NCBI RefSeq assembly: GCF_022201045.2
Contig: NC_068563.1
Location: 5,580,001-5,644,000, forward strand
Length of the DNA: 64,000 bases
DNA from: Citrus sinensis
Lineage: Eukaryota; Streptophyta; Magnoliopsida; Sapindales; Rutaceae
Direction: 5' to 3'
Shown: piece by piece, positions 8,331-46,099 of the stretch
Layout of the letters: the number at the start of each line of letters is the position of its first letter
How positions within the stretch are numbered: position 1 is the first letter of the stretch
Notes under the pieces: generated by a model
Told to the model about the DNA's origin: nothing
The model's input: only the letters and a program-made list of their open reading frames with translations
Databases searched by the model: none
Translations under genes and position numbers: made by a program

Positions 8331-9554
8331 TTTAACACTACCCAAATGCCATCAACTAGGACCATTGTATCCGCAGCTGCCTCTACAACAGCTATATTTA
8401 TGGTCATTCGATCCATTGCTCGCGATTACTTGCCTCGTGAGGTTCAATCTTACTTTGCTTTGAAGCTCAGAGATTTTATTTCAAGTTTTTCTAACGAGTT
8501 AACCTTTGTCATTGATGAATACGATGATGGCCTCAACCAAAACAGGCTCTTTAAAGCTGCAAAGATTTATCTTGAACCCAAAATCCCTCCCAATGTAAAG
8601 AGAATCAAAATCAATTTGCCAAAGAAAGAAACTAATACTTCACTTTCTGTTGAGAAAAATGAAGAGATTGTTGATGTCTTTAATGGGGTTCACTTAAAAC
8701 GGAAGTTGAGTCAAAACCAACCCCACGTGAGGCTATCAACAAAAGGCCAATTACTACAGGTTATAGGGTTAAAGCTCATGCTGCATGCTTTGAGCTGAGT
8801 TTTCACAAGAAAAACAAAGACTTTGTTTTACGTAATTACATACCACATGTCTTGAAGAAGTCTAAAGAAATAAGCCAGAAAAAGAAAACTTCGAAACTTC
8901 TTACTTTGGGGTCTCATAGAGGAGTATGGCAATCAGTGAATCTTGATCATCCGGCGACTTTTGATACATTGGCTATGGATTTTGATATGAAGAAGACGAT
9001 AATGGATGATCTAGAGAGGTTTCTGCAGAGGAAGGAATTTTATCGAAGAGTAGGCAAGGCATGGAAACGTGGGTATTTACTGTATGGTCCTCCAGGGACT
9101 GGCAAGTCAAGCTTGATTTGCGGCCATGGCTAATTATCTCAATTTCTATATCTATGACTTGGAGTTGTCTAATCTTCGGTGGCGTAATGGTGTGCGTTGA
9201 TGGTGGGGTGGCTAATTGGTAGAAAACAGTGATTGGAGTGCCCGTGTGGATACTTGATGGATGGACCGAAGTTACTTGGCTATTCGTTGCTTTTGTTAAA
9301 GGTCATAGGCCCGTGTGTTGTCGGCCTTCTTTTGAAAGGAAGGCATTGTAATTGGTTAGTCGGTTTGCACTTTAAAGTAGGTGAGTCGGTGGTTTAATTT
9401 AAACAATTTGTTTTGATTATGGTTTGGTTTACGTAGTTTTGTGTTTGTCAATCCTTGTAGTTTGTTGTGATTGGTGGATTTCAATTAGTTATCAAATTTA
9501 GTTTATTGGAAGGAATTTGAAGAAGTTGAATTAATATTCGGTTTCCCGCTCAGT

Positions 9555-9575
9555 GTTTGGCTATAAATATGTGTT
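9555..9575 (+). promoter_or_regulatory. TATA-like box before the 173-codon frame
   Basis: The motif GGCTATAAATATG lies about 70 nt before the start codon at 9629, followed by a purine-rich leader (gagcagg, gagagag). The spacing fits a plant RNA polymerase II core promoter, so the frame may have been an expressed gene of the inserted element. No transcript evidence. Confidence 0.4.
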
Positions 9576-9628
9576 GATCGGCTTCATTTTGGGAGCAGGA
9601 GAGCAGGATCGTAGAGGTTAGAGAGAGA

Positions 9629-10150
9629 ATGGAGAGGAAAGGTATGTGTGGTTCTCATTTGAGTTTCAGTAAGGGGTGGATGCATAGTATAGTTTCTGAA
9701 ATATGTGAGCATGATTTTGTGTTTGTATTAATCCCTTTTAATATGGAGAGGATGGAGTTAGTTGAGTTTTTCCGTAGACGTGGGTATTTGATATCGAATG
9801 GCCGTTCTCTTCCCTATGCTCATGGCCGTTCTCTTCCCTATGCTCATGGCGTTGATTATGGGATGGTGGATAGTGATGATGAAGACGCTGAGTGTGGGTT
9901 TGATTTTAGTAATTGGTCTGTTGAGAAGAACCGTAACACTGTAATATCATTGAGTGATTGGTGTGATGATAATGGCAACATGGAGGTTGTGGATGTTAAT
10001 TTAGATGGAAACTATGGGGTAATTAATATTGATATGGATCGGTTTTTCATGAAGTTTGATAAGCATTTAGTTGTATTCATTAATGATTATGATGTTGAAT
10101 TAGCTAAATGTAAAGCTTATGTAATCGATTGTAATAAGTTTTATAATTAA
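9629..10150 (+). CDS. Unknown 173-residue protein in the CRESS-like insert
   Basis: I do not recognise this protein. It begins MERKGMCGSHLSF, is acidic in the middle (DSDDEDAE) and holds an 8-residue direct repeat (GRSLPYAH twice, from a 24-bp tandem duplication at about 9800-9847). The C-terminal half is rich in Asp, Asn and Val (for example NIDMDRFFMKFDKHLVVFIND). No signal peptide, membrane span or catalytic motif is evident. It has a TATA-like box in front, and it lies on the strand opposite to the Rep-like segment, the place a second gene would occupy in an ambisense CRESS genome. It does not look like a typical basic jelly-roll capsid start. It may instead be a movement, silencing or accessory protein, or host DNA carried along; all are guesses. 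Confidence 0.45.
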   Translation: MERKGMCGSHLSFSKGWMHSIVSEICEHDFVFVLIPFNMERMELVEFFRRRGYLISNGRSLPYAHGRSLPYAHGVDYGMVDSDDEDAECGFDFSNWSVEKNRNTVISLSDWCDDNGNMEVVDVNLDGNYGVINIDMDRFFMKFDKHLVVFINDYDVELAKCKAYVIDCNKFYN

Positions 10151-10421
10151 TGAAAGTTAATAATATTAATGATATTATTAGAGATTATTATAAGTGTGAT
10201 GTAAATGGGGGCATAAGTGTGCCCGTATTCAGTTTTGTAAAGAATGTTGTAAGGTTATTGGTGGTGTTCCAGATGGATGTAATGTCGAAATTTGTAAGGA
10301 ATGAATGTTTGTTGAACAATGTGTGAACGTTATGGATTGTTTGTATATCATTTGGTTTATGTTAGCAATTTAACGAAATGTTCAAGAATGAAAAAAAAAA
10401 AACGTATCAAATAACACTTAG

Positions 10422-10574
10422 CTTACATTCGAAGAGTTGAGGGCTTTGTCCCGTACTCGAGTCCAGGAATGGAGTGGAAACAAACGAAGAGTGACCATAA
10501 CACATGACCTCCAGGGCATGTATGCAAGGGTGGTCCATTCGTTTATGCCTCCTAATGCTTCTATTGTTAGTGTT
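10422..10574 (+). other. Short coding-like stretch converging on Rep
   Basis: An open plus-strand stretch that includes the peptide words RVTITHDLQGMYARV and NASIVSVCFFGKE and ends just before the tail of the Rep-like segment. Composition is protein-like (few AT-biased residues), in contrast to the flanks. Its position, tail to tail with Rep, is that of the coat-protein C-terminus in geminiviruses and circoviruses, but I cannot assign it to a family. Part of the fossil. Confidence 0.3.
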
Positions 10575-10619
10575 TGCTTCTTTGGGAAAGAATGAATGAT
10601 TTGAAAGAAAAAGGAAACA

Positions 10620-11002
10620 ATTAAATTAATATAATACATTCTGTCTGGTGATAATACGGTTTTTCTTGTGAGTCTGCCGTTATTATCGTATTCATTTGAT
10701 GTACATGGTTTGAAATTAGCAAATACAATTATATGTGGTATTTTTATCCAAGCACTACGACTGAAATATTTTATTTTGCTTATGATGCCTTGTTTGAGAC
10801 ATTTAAGAAATCTGTAGCTGATTGAGTCTTCTGTTGATCTGGCACAGTCGAATATGGCTATGTCTGGTTGTTCGTCATATGCTTGAGCTAAGTCTTTGTA
10901 CGCACCTCCTGTTGTATACCATGCGTTGTAATTTAGTGCGATCCACTTGGCAAATGCTGATTTGCCTGTATTTCCTTGTTCGATCGTCTGGTTCTTGGTA
11001 TG
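10620..11002 (-). pseudogene. Rep (SF3 helicase half), CRESS-DNA type, fossil
   Basis: Minus-strand segment showing the ordered superfamily-3 helicase motifs of CRESS-virus replication proteins: Walker A EQGNTGKSAFAKW, Walker B QPDIAIFDCAR, motif C IIVFANFKP, and then the LSPDRM box that follows it in nanovirus, alphasatellite and smacovirus Reps. Family members nick and unwind the origin to start rolling-circle replication in the nucleus. The HUH endonuclease half is not recognisable in the block. Geminivirus-type Walker A (with SRTGKT) does not match. The start of the reading frame on this strand lies in host AAA-gene antisense and is not part of Rep. It is a relic, not a working gene. Confidence 0.8.
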
Positions 11003-11890
11003 TACTGATTGCCACAGAGAACAAGTCCATTCCGGTTGTGGAGGACATTGATTGTTGCATTGACCGGCAGGACAGGCTTTCACGGGCAAGGGCTACAAAT
11101 CCTGATGTTCTCATACCAGGATATGAACAACAACAAAATGAGGTAATATTATCATCCAACATCTCCTTATTTTAACTTAATAATTCTTAATACTGTAAAA
11201 TGATCAGTACCGTACGTGTTTCTAATTGTCCATAGTGAAACTGATTCCCCTGGTATAGCTAAGATGAGCCGGTCCATGTTTAACACCAGGATATAAGTTT
11301 GCAAATCAGGAAATTTGTTGTCAGTTATTTTTTGTATTCATTTACATGGTTTTTATTGAGAGGGTTGGATCTGTAAAATGGCTATGGCTATTCTTATCAA
11401 CAGCAAATCATATGTATATAATCCCTGACTTGGCCACATTTTTTTCCCTCCCTTTTTTCAGTATGTTATAACCTTATCAGGATTGTTAAACTTCATTGAT
11501 GGATTGTGGTCAAGCTGTGGAGACGAGCGGATCATAATATTCACAACCAATCATAAAGACAGGCTTGACCCTGCTTTGTTGCGCCCCGGTCGTATGGATA
11601 TGCATATCCACATGTCATACTGCACTCCACGTGGGTTCAAAATGCTGGCCTCCAACTACCTTGGGATCACAGAGCATCCACTTTTCGTGGAGATTGAAAA
11701 GCTGATAGAGACAGCAAAGGTGACGCCTGCGGATGTAGCTGAGCAGCTGCTGAGGAATGAGGCGCCTGAACTTGCACTAAGTGGTCTGACTGAGTTTCTT
11801 GAGACTAAGAAGAGAGCTAATGATGATGGTGAAGCCAAAGAAACAGAGGATTGGGCTAGGCAGAAACTTCTCGAACGCTTTAAAATGTAA

Positions 11891-12680
11891 TCAATGAGAC
11901 AAGCTAGAGATTCAGTAGATTTTATGAGACTTGCTAGAAGCAGTAGTTTATGGAGTTTGCAGTACTTTTACCTATAACATACGTACCGGGGCAGTTTAAA
12001 TTCCTTAAAAACTCACTTATGGTGGCAGGGTTTTGCTTGGAATCCTGCTATATCATTCCATGGATGAAAATGATATTATCTATGACTTTATATATCAATG
12101 AAAAGTTTGGTTGGTGCATCATTATGTATGAATATGTCATAAGGAATTAATGAAGAATATAATTGAAAATTTGATTTACAAAAGTTCATAATTAACCATT
12201 TAATTATGACAATTAAGCAGAACTGCAGAAGAGGGTTAAATCTTAACTTCCCAACTAACTATTTGCCACTAATTCAACGTGATCTATTTTGTTAACTACC
12301 AATTTCTCCCAATTACATGCTCTTCACCAACTACACAACAAACTCATCTTTCATCCTTTAGATCAAATAAATCAAAAGTAAGTAACAGATTGTGATAAGT
12401 CATAAGATCACCGTTAGATAATTAAAGAAGTCAACACTATTAATGAAATCTAATCATTTAACGGTGATTAAACTGTAAGCTACTGTACTACAAAGTATAC
12501 TTTGAGTCGCCCGCCAAAAACCAAGAAGTCGGTATTAATAAAAATAATAATAATAATTAAAAAAAAAAAGGAAGAAGAAGAGGAGGAGCGACCAAAGCCC
12601 ATAAATTAAAAGCCCTACTTGGTATCATTTTCTTTACCGCCTTAAAACCCCATCTTTGTTTTACATTTTTTCAGGCAAAA
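11891..12680. other. A3-B4 intergenic (copy of A1-B2 spacer)
   Basis: 3' flank of A3 and upstream region of B4; a diverged copy of 2811-3694. Contains a short run of aat repeats and A-rich sequence near 12535-12580 that is also found before B6 (17975-18010). No gene. Confidence 0.55.
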
Positions 12681-13101
12681 ATGCGCGACCAGAAGAAGTT
12701 TTTTTAGCGAAACCCGAGTGCCATCCACGACGACCACGGTATCTGCAGCAGCTTCTGCAGCAGGCACGGTATGGTAAACAGACTTGACCCTGCATATATT
12801 GTTGCGATCGAGTTGTATGGACATGCACATTCATATGTCTTATTGCACTCCATTTCGGTTCAAAATGCTGGCCTCAAACTACTTTGGGATCACAGAGTAT
12901 CCACTCCTCACAGAGATTGAAGAGTTGAAAGAGAAAGCAAATGTGACTCCAGCAGATGTAGTTGAGCAGCTAATGAGGAATAAAGTACCCGAAATTGCAC
13001 TTAGAGGCCTAACTGATGTCCTTGAGATTAAGCAGACGGAAAATGATGAAAGTAAAGCCAAAGAAGCAAAAGAAGAGAGAGCGGATGACGCACCAAATTG
13101 A
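12681..13101 (+). pseudogene. AAA-ATPase pseudogene B4 (5' end fused to C-terminus)
   Basis: A drastic deletion chimera. Positions 12681-12777 match the first ~100 bp of B6 (18119-18215), including its lost start region. The sequence then jumps to the C-terminal part, matching C7 from about 23007: sensor-1 to arginine-finger region (here SSCMDMHIHMSYCTP, with RPGR lost) and the Glu/Lys-rich tail ending at 13101. The whole N domain, Walker A and Walker B are gone. The 3' end is closest to C7, including the LTR that follows both, so the 3' half probably came by unequal recombination with a C-type copy. Confidence 0.85.
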
Positions 13102-15993: not shown

Positions 15994-17752
15994 ATGATTT
16001 TTAACACTACCCAAATGCCATCAACTAGGACCATTGTATCTGCTGTGGCCTCTACAACAGCTACATTTATGGTCATTCGATCCATTGCTCGCGATTACTT
16101 GCCTCGTGAGGTTCAATCTTACTTTGCTTTGAAGCTCAAAGATTTTATTTCAAGTTTTTCTAACGAGTTAACCTTTGTCATTGATGAATATGATGATGGT
16201 CTCAACCAAAACAAGCTCTTTAAAGCTGCAAAGATTTATCTTGAACCCAAAATCCCTCCCAATGTGAAGAGAATCAAAATCAATTTGCCAAGGAAAGAAA
16301 CTAATATTTCACTTTCTGTTGAGAAAAATGAAGAGATTGTTGATGTCTTTAATGGAGTTCACTTAAAATGGAAGTTTGAGTCAAAACCAACCCCATCTGA
16401 GGCCATCAACAAAAGGTCAATTACTAAAGGTTATACGGTGAAAGATCATGCTGCATGCTTTGAGCTGAGCTTTCACAAGAAAAACAAAGACTTTGTTTTA
16501 GGTACTTACATACCTCATGTCTTGAAGAAGTCTAAAGAAATAAGCCAGAAAAAGAAAACTTTGAAGCTTTTTACTTTGGGGTCTCACAGAGGAATGATTG
16601 GTGATAAATCAATATGGCAATCAGTGAATCTTGATCATCCGGCAAATTTTGATACATTGGCTATGGATTTTGATATGAAGAAGACGATAATGGATGATCT
16701 AGAGAGGTTTCTGCAGAGGAAGGAATTTTATCGAAGAGTAGGCAAGGCATGGAAACGAGGGTATTTACTGTTTGGTCCTCCAGGGACTGGCAAGTCAAGC
16801 TTGATCGCGGCCATGGCTAATTATCTCAAATTTGATATCTATGACTTGGAGTTATCTAATCTTCGGGGAAATAATGATTTAAGGCATATACTGATTGCCA
16901 CAGAGAACAAGTCCATTCTGGTTGTGGAGGACATTGATTGTTGCATTGACCGGCAGGACAGGCTTTCGCGGGCAAGGGCTACAAATCCTGGTGTTCTCAT
17001 ACCAGGATCTGAACAACAACAAAATCAGGTAATATTATCATCCAACATCTCTTTATTTTAACTTAATAATTCTTAATACTGTAAAATGATCAGTACCGTA
17101 CGCGTTTCGAATTGTTCATAGTGAACCGGATTCCCCTGTTATAGCTAAGATAAGCCAGTCCATGGTTAACACCAGGATATAAGTTTGCAAATCAGGAAAT
17201 TTGTTGTCAGTTCATTTTTGTATTAATTTACATGGTTTTTATTGAGAGGGTTGGATCTGTAAAATGGCTATGGCTGTTCTTATCAACAGCAAATCATATG
17301 TATATAATCCCTGACTTGGCCACATTTTTTTCCCTCCCTTTTTTCAGTATGTTATAACCTTATCAGGATTGTTAAACTTCATTGATGGATTGTGGTCAAG
17401 CTGTGGAGATGAGCGGATCATAATATTCACAACCAATCATAAAGACAGGCTTGACCCTGCTTTGTTGCGCCCCGGTCGTATGGATGTGCATATCCACATG
17501 TCATACTGCACTCCATGTGGGTTCAAAATGCTGGCCTCCAACTACCTTGGGATCACAGAGCATCCACTTTTCGTGGAGATTGAAAAGCTGATAGAGACAG
17601 CAAAGGCGACGCCTGCGGATGTAGCTGAGCAGCTGCTGAGGAATGAGGTGCCTGAACTTGCACTAAGTGGCCTGATTGAGTTTCTTGAGACTAAGAAGAG
17701 AGCTAATGATGATAGTGAAGCCAAAGCAGCAGAGGAGAGAGGAGAGAGCTAG
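15994..17752 (+). CDS. AAA-ATPase A5, BCS1/OM66-like (intact)
   Basis: Predicted 479-residue AAA-ATPase, close paralogue of A1. Exon 1 is 15994-17028, exon 2 is 17348-17752; both phase 0; GT-AG intron of 319 bp. N-terminal hydrophobic anchor (about residues 10-30), AAA-associated domain, Walker A GPPGTGKSS from residue 261, Walker B ILVVEDIDCC from 308, then sensor-1 TTNH and RPGRMD in exon 2. The tail is about ten residues shorter than in A1 because the stop comes earlier in the Glu-rich segment. Same start MIFNTTQ as A1. A solo LTR lies 268 bp upstream. No break seen; probably membrane-bound in mitochondria by family analogy. Confidence 0.9.
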
Positions 17753-18118
17753 GCAAAAACTACTCGAACGCTTTAAAATGTAATAAATGAGACAGGCTAG
17801 AGATTCAGTAGATTTTATGAGGCTTGCTAGAAGCAGTAGTTTATGGAGTTTGCAGTACTTTTATCTATAACATACATACCGGGGCAGTTTAATTTCCTTG
17901 AAAACTCACTTTTGTAAGCTACTGTACTACAAAGTATACTTTGAATCGCCCGCCAAAAACCAAGAAATCGGTATTAATAAAAATAATAATAATAAAAAAA
18001 AAAAAAAGGAAGAAGAAGAGGAGGAGCGACCAAAGCCCATAAATTGAAAGCCCTACTTGGTATCATTTTCTTTACCGCCTTAAAACCCCATCTTTGTTTT
18101 ACATTTTTTCAGGCAAAA

Positions 18119-27275: not shown

Positions 27276-27390
27276 CTTCCACAAACTCATCATCTAAATG
27301 AAAAACAACCAAAAGAACCCATAAATCAAAAGCCCTCCTTTCACCTCAAAAACTTTTTTTTTCTCCCTCGCCACCAAAAAGGAGAAAAAG

Positions 27391-28968
27391 ATGTCTCTTA
27401 ACACTACCCAAATGCTATCAACCACCACCATAGTATCCGCTGCAGCTTCTGCAGCGGCCACAGCTATGGTTATTCGATCCATTACTCATGATTACTTGCC
27501 TTTTGAGGTTAGAGCCTACTTTGCTGTAAAACTCAAATCTCTTCTTGCAAGATTTTCTAGTGAGTTGACGTTAGTCATTAACGAATATGATGATGGCCTT
27601 AACCAAAACGTGCTCTTTAAAGCTGCAAAGCTTTATCTTGAACCCAGAATCCCACCCTACGTGAAGCGAATTAAGATCAACTTGCCAAACAAGGAAACCA
27701 AGATTTCATGCTCTGTTGAAAAAGATGAGGAGATTGTTGATGTCTTTAATGGAGTTCAACTGAAATGGAGGTTTTCTTCAAAACAAGTCCCTACAGAGAT
27801 GGTTCATCATCCGGACCATTACAACCCTGTGGTTAAATCCGAGGACAGATGCTTTGAGCTCAGTTTTCACAAGAAGTATAAGCAAGTGGTCATGGATAGT
27901 TACATTCCTCACGTATTGAAGCAATCTAAAGAAACAAGCACGCAAAAGAAAACCCTGAAGCTTTTTACCTTGAGGTATGATAGGATGCACGGGATGAGAG
28001 GAGATGTATGGCAATCAGTGAATCTTGATCATCCGGCCACTTTTGATACGCTGGCAATGGATTCTGATATGAAGCAGATGATAATGGATGATCTCGAGAG
28101 GTTTGTGAAGAGGAAGGAGTTTTACAGAAATGTGGGCAAGGCATGGAAACGCGGGTATTTGTTGTATGGTCCTCCAGGTACAGGGAAGTCAAGCTTGATT
28201 GCGGCCATGGCTAATTATCTGAATTTTGATGTTTATGACTTGGAGTTGACAAATCTCAGAGGGAATATGGAGTTAAGGAATTTGCTGATCGCCACAGAGA
28301 ATAAATCCATTCTCGTTGTGGAGGACATTGATTGTTCCATTGAGTTGCAGGATAGGTTTGCAAAGGCAAAAGCTACCAATGCTATGGACTTGAATGTGAT
28401 CCAACCCGTTATGAATCTTAATCAAGTACCTCAGGTAATCTTAGTATCTCAAGATTCTCAAGTCTTTTCTTTCTTTTTTTTCTTTTTTTTAAATAGAACT
28501 TATAATATGGTACATAATTTTATTTTTTTTCGATTTCAGGTGACTTTGTCTGGAATGCTAAACTTCATAGATGGACTATGGTCGAGCTGTGGGGATGAGC
28601 GGATCATAATATTCACAACCAATCATAAAGACAGGCTGGACCCTGCTTTCTTGCGCCCTGGTCGCATGGATGTGCACATTCACATGTCCTATTGCACTTC
28701 ATGTGGGTTCAAAATGCTGGCCTCAAGCTACCTTGGAATTACCGAGCATCCACTTTTCTTGGAGGTTGAAGGGTTGATAGAGAAAGCAAAGGTGACGCCT
28801 GCTGATGTAGCTGAGCAGCTGATGAGGAATGAGGTGCCCGAAATTGCACTTAGGGAGCTAATTCAGTTTCTTGAGATAAAGAGGAGGGAAAGTGATGAAA
28901 GCAAAGCTAAAGAAGTGAAAGAAGAGAGAGCAGAGGAAGCAGAAAGTGTTCGAGCAATTGAAGCTTAA
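27391..28968 (+). CDS. AAA-ATPase D8, BCS1/OM66-like (intact)
   Basis: Best preserved member of the cluster. Exon 1 is 27391-28434, exon 2 is 28540-28968, giving 490 residues. Hydrophobic N-terminal anchor (about residues 12-32), AAA-associated domain, Walker A GPPGTGKSS from residue 260, Walker B ILVVEDIDCS from 307, sensor-1 TTNH and RPGRMD in exon 2, Glu/Lys-rich tail. The 105-bp intron (GT at 28435, AG at 28539) is a multiple of three and free of stops, so retaining it would give a 525-residue protein with 35 extra residues (Phe-rich) just before the second half of the AAA core. The spliced form matches A1 and A5, so it is the likely main product. No close tandem partner; probably the least disturbed ancestor-like copy. 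Confidence 0.92.
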   Translation: MSLNTTQMLSTTTIVSAAASAAATAMVIRSITHDYLPFEVRAYFAVKLKSLLARFSSELTLVINEYDDGLNQNVLFKAAKLYLEPRIPPYVKRIKINLPNKETKISCSVEKDEEIVDVFNGVQLKWRFSSKQVPTEMVHHPDHYNPVVKSEDRCFELSFHKKYKQVVMDSYIPHVLKQSKETSTQKKTLKLFTLRYDRMHGMRGDVWQSVNLDHPATFDTLAMDSDMKQMIMDDLERFVKRKEFYRNVGKAWKRGYLLYGPPGTGKSSLIAAMANYLNFDVYDLELTNLRGNMELRNLLIATENKSILVVEDIDCSIELQDRFAKAKATNAMDLNVIQPVMNLNQVPQVILVSQDSQVFSFFFFFFLNRTYNMVHNFIFFRFQVTLSGMLNFIDGLWSSCGDERIIIFTTNHKDRLDPAFLRPGRMDVHIHMSYCTSCGFKMLASSYLGITEHPLFLEVEGLIEKAKVTPADVAEQLMRNEVPEIALRELIQFLEIKRRESDESKAKEVKEERAEEAESVRAIEA

Positions 28969-30756: not shown

Positions 30757-34283
<3,527 letters not shown>

Positions 34284-35330
34284 AATCGAACTCAGAGATC
34301 GACAGAAACTTGAAGATGATTGATCAAGATGAAAACCGCACAGCCAACTTCCCTGGAAGTGCGGTATAACCTGAAAAGTGACAGAAATATTAACTACAAC
34401 CAACTGCTGGTACATACAAATTTTTATGAGCGAAAAAAGCAGAAACATGCGAGTAAATTTACATATACATACAAATTTGCAACACGGTTACATGTCCACT
34501 TAGACGTATATAGACTTTCACATTTAAGAACCTTCCAAACTGCATGATATACTGATCACGCATCCCCATTTCGAAAACAAACAAAATCTAATTGCCAATT
34601 TAGCTATTGCAATTTGATATAACACGTAACTGCACAAAAGATTCAGCAGAAGCCGCACACTTTTGCCAACATAAAGAAGCAAGTAATGCAATCCTATCAT
34701 TTATTGCCAAATAATATATAGCCCAAGAATTCATTTCTGCTAATACACAAAAACTGATATATCCTTCTTGCATTAATAATTGTTGCATGTCAATTCACAC
34801 AAATTCCTCTTTTGCATTATGAATTCAATTTTCCCAGGAAAGCTGAAACTCACAATCCCACCCTAGAAAATTGATCAAAATTAAAAATAAAAATATTATA
34901 TAAATAAATAAATAAATAACAGCCGGAGCAAATCCTCAACGTTTGCTGCAAAAAAATAAAAATAAAATAAAATATACAATGCATGATCACATTTATAGTC
35001 AAAGAGGAAAATATACACAAATGCAAATTATTTACAACACCAAAATGAAAGAAAGTAGAATCATCTTCGCAAAAAGAATAATAATAATAAATAAACAAAT
35101 AAAACAACAGCATCTCCGTCAATTAAAATAAAAATTCTCAAAAATTAAAAAAAAAATGAAAGAAAGTTACCGACCGATCTGCAAGCGAGCCGCAAAATCT
35201 TGATCTCTCACGCGAAAAAAAAAAGAAAAAAAAAAGAACCTACCAAAATAAATGAAAAATGGCGAAGAATTAGGGTTTCGATTACAAAAATATAAATAAA
35301 AATGCGAGTATATTTTAGTTTCAGAAATGT
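34284..35330 (-). promoter_or_regulatory. 5' leader, leader intron and promoter of DHFR-TS
   Basis: A splice acceptor (tttcag) at 34372 and a donor (cg then gtaact) at about 35172 frame an 800-bp intron in the 5' leader. The presumed first exon is about 35173-35270. A telo-box AAACCCTAA lies on the minus strand at 35270-35278, a motif known from promoters of genes active in dividing cells, which fits a dTMP-synthesis gene. No clear TATA box. Confidence 0.5.
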
Positions 35331-40055: not shown

Positions 40056-40759
40056 TAGAGCTGACAAAATTTGACACAATCTGATTACTCGACACGAACA
40101 CGACACCAATAAATGAGTATGAGTCGTCGAATTTAACACGATTATTAAATGAGTCGGGTCCGGGTCAACACGATTTTTTTCCGTGTCGGGTTAGGATTAA
40201 AAGTCTTGACCCATTTACCCGATCAATAACCTGATTATATTTTCTATTTTAAAATAATTTACAGGTTCTTGTCATCAAAACTCAAATATTATGATGATTT
40301 TTTTTTATTCTTTAAAAGGATGAATATAGACACAATATTTTATTTATAAAATTTTAAAGACATTTAGAGCTTTAATAGTATAAATGTATAAAATATTAGT
40401 AGACATATATATTTTATAATATTGATATATAATATTATTTACATATATATAATTAAAACCTCAATAGTGTGTAATATTTTAGTAGATATGTATATTTTAT
40501 AATATTGATAAATTATGTATGTATGTATAGATATATGTATGTATGTGCATACATATGTATGACAAAGTGTAAATATTTGATGTAACTTTTGTTTAATATA
40601 TAGATATTAAGCGAGTTATTGGATAACCCGATTATTTTTCTATGTCGGGTTTGGGTCTCAATATTTTGACATGATTATTAAATGGGTCGAATTTGGATCG
40701 ACCTAAATTTGACACGACACGACACGAACACGACCCGATGACCCGTTTTGCCAGCTCTA
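40056..40759. mobile_element. hAT-type non-autonomous element
   Basis: 704 bp with terminal inverted repeats TAGAGCTGACAAAA (left) and TAGAGCTGGCAAAA (right, reverse complement), and an 8-bp target duplication with one mismatch: ctaagtaa at 40048-40055 and ccaagtaa at 40760-40767. TAG start, 8-bp duplication and subterminal repeats (cacgacacgaacacgac words near both ends) fit the hAT superfamily. No transposase is encoded. Confidence 0.75.
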
Positions 40760-41066
40760 CCAAGTAACATACCAATTTTTTTTTCCTTTTTTTTCTTTTT
40801 TTGGGGGATATTTATAGGCAAAACGTAACACTATTAAAGTGTATTTCACAATTATATTCCTACCAAGTAACATACCAATTTTTTTTTCCTTTTTTTTCTT
40901 TTTTTGGGGGATATTTATAGGCAAAACGTAACACTATTAAAGTGTATTTCACAATTATATTCCTACCAAGTAACATACCAATTTTTTTTTCCTTTTTTTT
41001 CTTTTTTTGGGGGATATTTATAGGCAAAACGTAACACTATTAAAGTGTATTTCACAATGATATTCC
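40758..41066. repeat. Three tandem 103-bp units
   Basis: Units start at 40758, 40861 and 40964 with taccaagtaacatacc, run through T-rich and ggggg-containing sequence and end in cacaattatattcc. They are almost identical (one clear mismatch in the last), so the expansion is recent. The first unit begins at the last two bases of the hAT element and includes its right target duplication. Confidence 0.95.
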
Positions 41067-41852
41067 TATTGGATGCGGAGTAAATTGTCACATCAATTTT
41101 TATCCTAACTTTGTATGCGTGGAATTATTCTTGAGAGTTATTACTTATAGCCTACGAAAACCCTTTTTGCCAACAATTGATTATATGTCCCGGGCCTCCA
41201 CGAGCATTAGCAGCAGTGAAAAGAGAGAATCCTATTGAAGTTTTCAATTCAATGATGCATTTTGTAGGCCATTAGTTAGACAAATCACCAAAAGTTGCTT
41301 TCTATGCTTCGAAAAAACTTTCACCTCCTTAAAAGAATGAGATTCCCATATTTTATTTCAAAATTTGCTAAACATTGTCCTATCACCGGATCATATCTGC
41401 TACGACTTTTAATCCCTCGCAATGATTGTGAACAAAATCACTAACTGTTGAAGTACAATACACAAACACTTGAGCTGTTATGGCTTCAACTTTGAGTAAA
41501 AGCACGATATGAGTTCCATGGCATCAGGCATAAGTAAATTAAATTGGGTAACCTACGGATCACTGTGATGCACTGAACATACATCCTCAATACAACTTAA
41601 ATTACAGTATAATCATTGTAACAACTCCATCAGACAAAAATTTCGAATGCTTAGTGATATCCAGGTAGGAGAGTCTGAATTGTTGAGATTCATTTTTTGC
41701 AGTTGTAGTCAAGAATCCAATGGGATGTCAAACAAAGCTGAAATATAACATTCAGCAGCTAATAGAAAATCAGTAGCTAATAGAATTTGACACGTGATCG
41801 TTTCATGTAAAAGCAAATCATAAAGTTAAGTGTGCCTTACACGTATCTGCAT

Positions 41853-46099
<4,247 letters not shown>

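Follow-up and report, generated by a model that had tools for sequence, protein, structure and literature searches.

A probable relic of a CRESS-type Rep helicase in an interrupted AAA-ATPase gene copy of Citrus sinensis

Introduction

Could a helicase-like peptide encoded on the minus strand within a plant AAA gene be what is left of a viral replication protein, and if so, what kind of virus would it have come from? Endogenous Rep elements are already known as a kind, and a limited literature search indicates that, in plant chromosomes, the described elements of ssDNA viruses are geminivirus-like. The locus addressed here lies in a stretch of 64,000 nucleotides from Citrus sinensis (contig NC_068563.1, positions 5,580,001 to 5,644,000), which we refer to as the window and to which all positions below relate. 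The initial annotation of this DNA proposed a relic of a CRESS-type Rep helicase whose motifs are not those of geminiviruses. If the relic is indeed non-geminiviral, it would link a plant host to a lineage that is otherwise beyond the known plant ssDNA virus families.

The window also holds two minus-strand open frames with recognizable domains, one with a dihydrofolate reductase domain (33771-34487; PF00186, E=9.5e-28) and one matching the beginning of a pyridoxal-dependent decarboxylase domain (45557-46099; PF02784, E=2.9e-9), as well as a 103-bp unit present in three nearly identical tandem copies (40757-41068, 99% matches).

Results

An insert in one copy of a tandem AAA-ATPase array

Positions 1000-29000 of the window are occupied by a tandem AAA-ATPase array, in which seven copies, the interrupted one included, span the site of interest and a further partial copy is found at 12778-13068. 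One array member (27325-28968) is a single open frame of 547 aa with AAA_assoc, AAA and lid domains. The interrupted host gene has an AAA domain and an At3g28540-type lid in a Pfam search, and its alignment to the paralogs breaks at 9179/10997. In an alignment within the window, 8401-9179 pairs with 16070-16866 of the nearest paralog and 10997-11999 pairs with 16883-17892, so that the 1817 bp at 9180-10996 (no strand assigned) are extra sequence in an exon of the gene copy and 16 bp present in the paralog are lost; the borders are precise to a few bases. The left part of the interrupted copy (8401-9179, plus strand) differs from two paralogs by an 18-bp deletion and two one-base frameshifts, and the right part (10997-11890, plus strand) carries the lid domain. 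The segment singled out in the initial annotation is just one end of this larger insert.

The site is uninterrupted in six out of six other copies in the window that span the insertion point, with the flanks 16-30 bp apart; the partial copy falls short of the site and was left out of this count. Inspection by eye found neither a target duplication nor terminal inverted repeats or matching ends at the insert ends, where the 16 bp of target are lost. No second copy of the insert was found by DNA or protein search of the 299.7-Mb, 11-contig genome: the DNA matches elsewhere end at the host border, and the protein search gave a single match elsewhere, at E=3.35. With host DNA on both sides and an empty site in all six paralogous copies, we class the insert as an endogenous viral element, its viral nature being argued from the helicase piece described below.

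The four SF3 helicase motifs lie in one minus-strand frame

The helicase frame on the minus strand is open over 10418-11092 (224 codons); its initial part is antisense host sequence, and 192 of the open codons lie inside the insert. The 130 codons at 10607-10996 (minus strand) read as an SF3 helicase piece of a CRESS-type Rep, which extends from Walker A to the Arg finger and is truncated just before Walker A. The frame continues open for 62 codons at 10421-10606 (minus strand), a part without a known match and with a composition unlike the rest of the insert. In the 130-aa translation, Walker A (GNTGKS) starts at residue 8, Walker B (IFD) at residue 48, motif C or Sensor 1 (VFAN) at residue 91, and the Arg-finger box or sensor 2 (LSPDR) at residue 115. 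The four motifs share one frame and follow the expected order, and the Lys and Ser/Thr of Walker A, the Asp of Walker B, the Asn of motif C and the Arg finger are all present, which bears out the minus-strand motif set and the order first claimed for it. A strand normally precedes Walker A; it is absent from the piece, and the start of the profile match at position 8, given below, agrees with this. Three patterns for HUH nuclease motifs I-III gave no match in the six frames of the insert. As the helicase frame is cut at the junction, we file the piece as a Rep-derived relic and not as a Rep.

In a search of 24736 Pfam models, the Rep helicase profile named in the initial annotation, PF00910 (RNA_helicase), is recovered as the sole match of the 130-aa piece (E=0.0073; profile positions 8-104, or 97 out of 105), but with a score under the curated cut-off (17.2 vs 21.5 bits). 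The whole 224-aa frame, in which the antisense host part is included, gave E=0.024 and 15.6 bits against the same profile, also below the 21.5-bit cut-off, and three sub-pieces of the helicase, each searched alone, had no match in Pfam. The PF00910 profile by itself is not decisive, because a search of the whole genome, in which 48 candidates were scored, returned 27 weak matches at E<=1, six of which pass the cut-off by themselves, and the helicase locus is absent from these 27. The 27 matches extend at most to profile position 74, and many of them cover the Walker A end only. We also composed, after the sequence was seen, a regular expression covering the four motifs from Walker A to the Arg finger; in a loose and a strict form alike, it had one match in the window and none in 193.5 Mb of random DNA from an order-2 Markov model. 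The initial proposal of a CRESS-type Rep helicase relic in a plant AAA gene is supported. Two predicted structures were of low confidence (mean pLDDT 49.7 and 29.9), and a fold search with the first of them gave 654 matches at E<=10 and none at E<=0.001.

Searches for relatives of the helicase piece gave 24 pattern stretches in a collection of viral contigs and 170 in prokaryote genome contigs, none of which was confirmed. Twelve plasmid records (best E about 1) and six phage records (best E about 3) were returned, and none covers 80% of the query. The PDB gave two matches up to E=10, with unrelated names and a best E of 0.43, the best E in PHROGs was 0.06, and NCBIfam had no match. The Walker A pattern occurs at 0 loci in the viral contigs, and for the pattern VFANFxPD, found there at 32 loci, a Walker A upstream in frame was seen in 0 of the 32. 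These contigs probably do not contain eukaryotic CRESS viruses, so the null result there carries little weight. In the genome, the profiles Viral_Rep, Gemini_AL1 and Gemini_AL1_M were without a match, and as the controls matched nowhere, the nulls for Gemini_AL1 and Gemini_AL1_M say little.

A second open frame and a C-depleted strand

The insert also has an orphan frame on the plus strand (9629-10147), which encodes an acidic product of 173 aa (pI 4.78) and may be the relic of a second gene; measured from stop to stop it covers 9578-10150, or 190 codons. Neither Pfam nor NCBIfam contains a match to the product, a PDB search was negative at E<=1, and the best E against PHROGs was 0.072. About 60 bp ahead of the ATG there is a TATA-like box, identified by eye (9562-9569, plus strand). 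One frame of at least 190 codons was found in 13 out of 2000 dinucleotide shuffles, and two of them together, as in the insert (192 and 190 codons, stop to stop), in none of the 2000. Within the orphan frame lies a perfect 24-bp tandem repeat of 2.2 copies (9798-9850). Right after the frame comes a Cys-rich open stretch of 34 codons (10200-10301, plus strand), which is in a different frame, has no ATG and gave no Pfam match; possibly it continues the orphan frame.

The plus strand is depleted of C over 9180-10400 (9.1% C, 27.0% G, 37.3% T). The GC skew of this stretch is +0.497, whereas equally long overlapping windows from the rest of the 64 kb, 6034 in number, do not go beyond an absolute skew of 0.27. 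The skew drops to +0.126 at 10401-10606 and to +0.108 at 10607-10996, and the plus strand is richer in T than in A both at 9180-10400 and at 10607-10996. Such a C-poor, T-rich strand would be compatible with one that is kept single-stranded. The segment 10401-10606, with 18.4% C against 9.1% to its left, is without a genome match elsewhere and could mark a junction within the insert. Host filler was considered as its source and rejected, DNA and plus-frame protein searches having given one weak genome match only (E=3.35).

The origin nonanucleotide NANTATTAC is absent from the insert, and no hairpin fitting a replication origin was found there. When one mismatch is allowed, TAATATTAC has three matches in the insert (at about 9941, 10160 and 10161), all in AT-rich DNA and without a fitting hairpin; the whole 3570-base locus has 5 such matches, a number that is reached in 5 out of 200 shuffles.

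Age of the insertion

The interrupted copy differs from the nearest paralog at 35 out of 779 and 42 out of 1004 aligned sites in the two flanks (95.5 and 95.8% identity), and the presence of such near-identical empty gene copies alongside makes the insertion datable. When three copies are compared, 18 and 20 changes in the two flanks are private to the interrupted copy, the left flank of which also has the two one-base frameshifts and the 18-bp deletion. Plant substitution rates are about 0.65-1.5% per million years, and at these rates the 38 private changes among roughly 1700-1780 sites suggest that the interrupted copy and its paralogs separated no more than 1-4 million years ago. The insert would have arrived after this separation; gene conversion could falsify the age estimate, and the open frames in the insert agree with a young insertion.

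Discussion

We favor, with good confidence, the explanation that the insert is a fairly young endogenous viral element, which derives from a non-geminiviral CRESS-type replicon and was captured in a break in the AAA-ATPase array. An intact Rep in the donor would have made the nick at the origin and, by means of a ring-shaped SF3 motor, unwound the DNA for rolling-circle replication. We suggest that a break in one tandem AAA-ATPase member took up a linear strand and that end-joining sealed this break, with a loss of about 16 bp and no target duplication seen. What was captured would be, on the minus strand, the Rep helicase half, together with a second plus-strand gene and, probably, some of an intergenic region; the nuclease half of Rep and the origin would have been left uncaptured. 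The putative order of elements, namely intergenic region, plus-strand gene, tail-to-tail gap and then Rep from its end up to Walker A, where it is cut, is what could be expected for a linear virion strand that starts near the origin and is truncated at its far end. Lacking nuclease and origin, the fragment is not expected to replicate on its own, and in the plant the relic would be a fossil that disrupts a gene copy. If the missing half is added according to the usual size of Reps, the donor genome would have measured about 2.2 kb or more, a size that neither nanovirus components nor alphasatellites reach.

Alternatively, the insert could be a mosaic in which several pieces, be they from different components of one multipartite virus or a combination of viral DNA and filler, were ligated during repair, and this we take as a serious, though not the favored, possibility. 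A mosaic is made possible by the drop in skew after 10400, the values shifting along the insert from +0.497 to +0.126 and +0.108, and the usual coat proteins are not acidic, unlike the 173-aa product with its pI of 4.78. In a mosaic, nothing on the gene order of the donor could be read from Rep and the plus-strand frame lying on opposite strands. On the other hand, T exceeds A on the plus strand on both sides of the possible junction, in 9180-10400 as well as in 10607-10996, and the order of elements suits a linear ambisense genome; we take one ambisense donor genome to be the likelier source.

As to the lineage of the donor, a comparison of Reps (PMC8780604) gives Asn at the second Arg-finger position in Geminiviridae, Genomoviridae and pCRESS9, and describes CRESSV2-5, Nanoviridae, Smacoviridae and pCRESS2-4 as having retained the second Arg only. 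The LSPDR box of the relic reads Asp-Arg, so that it has Arg and not Asn at this position and keeps the second Arg alone, as do the Nanoviridae, and this disfavours a geminiviral donor. The original statement that the motifs are not geminivirus-like is thus supported, both by the Arg in the place where that comparison gives Asn and by Gemini_AL1_M not being among the Pfam matches. For helix 3 the same comparison gives Lys in CRESSV2, Geminiviridae, Genomoviridae and pCRESS9, and Glu in Nanoviridae, Smacoviridae and CRESSV4-5. The relic appears to have Lys here (LKCLK) in a column whose register is inferred, for which reason the reading is a lead only, one that may favor CRESSV2 over Nanoviridae. 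That the donor was a geminivirus or genomovirus could be argued from the same Lys, in its inferred register, and from geminiviral elements being the ssDNA kind described in plants (PMC7758297), but we consider such a donor improbable in view of the Arg at the Arg finger, where the rule in PMC8780604 calls for Asn, and of a helicase piece without a Gemini_AL1_M match.

A fragment of a cellular P-loop ATPase or of a transposon is quite improbable as well. PF00910 does weakly match host AAA-type frames too, but in the insert motif C and the Arg-finger box follow Walker A and Walker B, no other genome copy or protein relative was found, and neither a target duplication nor matching ends were seen by eye. 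That the SF3 helicase came from a picorna-like RNA virus by copying into DNA would fit the name RNA_helicase that PF00910 bears and the relatedness of CRESS and picornavirus-like helicases noted in PMC6668415, but it is hardly credible beside a VFAN motif and a helicase layout like the CRESS motifs printed in PMC12360566, and no other RNA-virus gene was recognized in the insert, the second frame being an orphan. A chance open frame with look-alike motifs, for which the sub-threshold Pfam score and the post hoc regular expression could be cited, we discount almost entirely, since the expression found nothing in 193.5 Mb of random DNA and the match to PF00910, a family singled out ahead of any search, is near full-length.

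Beyond the preferred reading of a non-geminiviral CRESS-type element, we put forward one proposal that we regard as tentative and rather doubtful: the insert could stem from a plant-infecting CRESS lineage that has gone unrecognised, close to CRESSV2 and part of neither Geminiviridae nor Nanoviridae, and be the first sign of it. Such a virus would have an ambisense genome no smaller than about 2.2 kb, would encode Rep on its complementary strand as well as an acidic orphan protein, and would have a virion strand depleted of C. The captured piece would start in the intergenic region and break off inside Rep, as though a break had trapped a linear virion strand. The 173-aa second frame could serve as a probe for this missing virus.

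The relic can be compared with several known systems. An alphasatellite- or nanovirus-like lineage, as first proposed, is no more than a candidate: the relic shares the FD of Walker B and the VFAN of motif C with the alphasatellite-like Rep of CPAV as printed (CVFDL and VFAN; PMC12360566), whereas Walker A differs (GSVGAEGKT in that Rep, GNTGKS in the relic) and helix 3 appears to have Lys, not Glu, in the inferred register. The CPAV Rep is furthermore carried on a whole replicon, whereas the relic is a C-terminal fragment. A Walker A of the GNSGKT type, akin to that of the relic, is given for a smacovirus and an unclassified CRESS genome in PMC7098587. With the CRESSV2 Reps, as described in PMC8780604, the relic has in common the second Arg alone of the Arg-finger pair and, if the inferred register is right, the Lys of helix 3. 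The Reps of two phytoplasma records (L032 and L033) contain a PF00910 helicase too. When the three sequences are aligned in MAFFT, the two Reps are 26 and 28% identical to the relic, and Walker A and Walker B align but motif C and the Arg-finger region do not; BLASTP of the relic against the first of these Reps (L032) found nothing over noise.

Eukaryotic endogenous CRESS Rep sequences (PMC3198968) are likewise fragments related to the Rep of circular ssDNA viruses in a nuclear genome. According to that 2011 survey, no circovirus- or nanovirus-like sequences were detected in the plant genomes sequenced by then, and a literature search, conducted mostly outside subscription journals and on incomplete texts, turned up no publication since then on a CRESS element of non-geminiviral type in plant chromosomes. 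Unlike the plant result of the survey, the relic is borne by a plant and is without the geminiviral Asn at the Arg finger. The endogenous geminivirus-like elements of plants, as described in PMC7758297, are likewise Rep-derived DNA in a plant genome; compared to these, the relic has no match to Gemini_AL1_M, matches PF00910 in its place, and carries Arg, not Asn, at the Arg finger.
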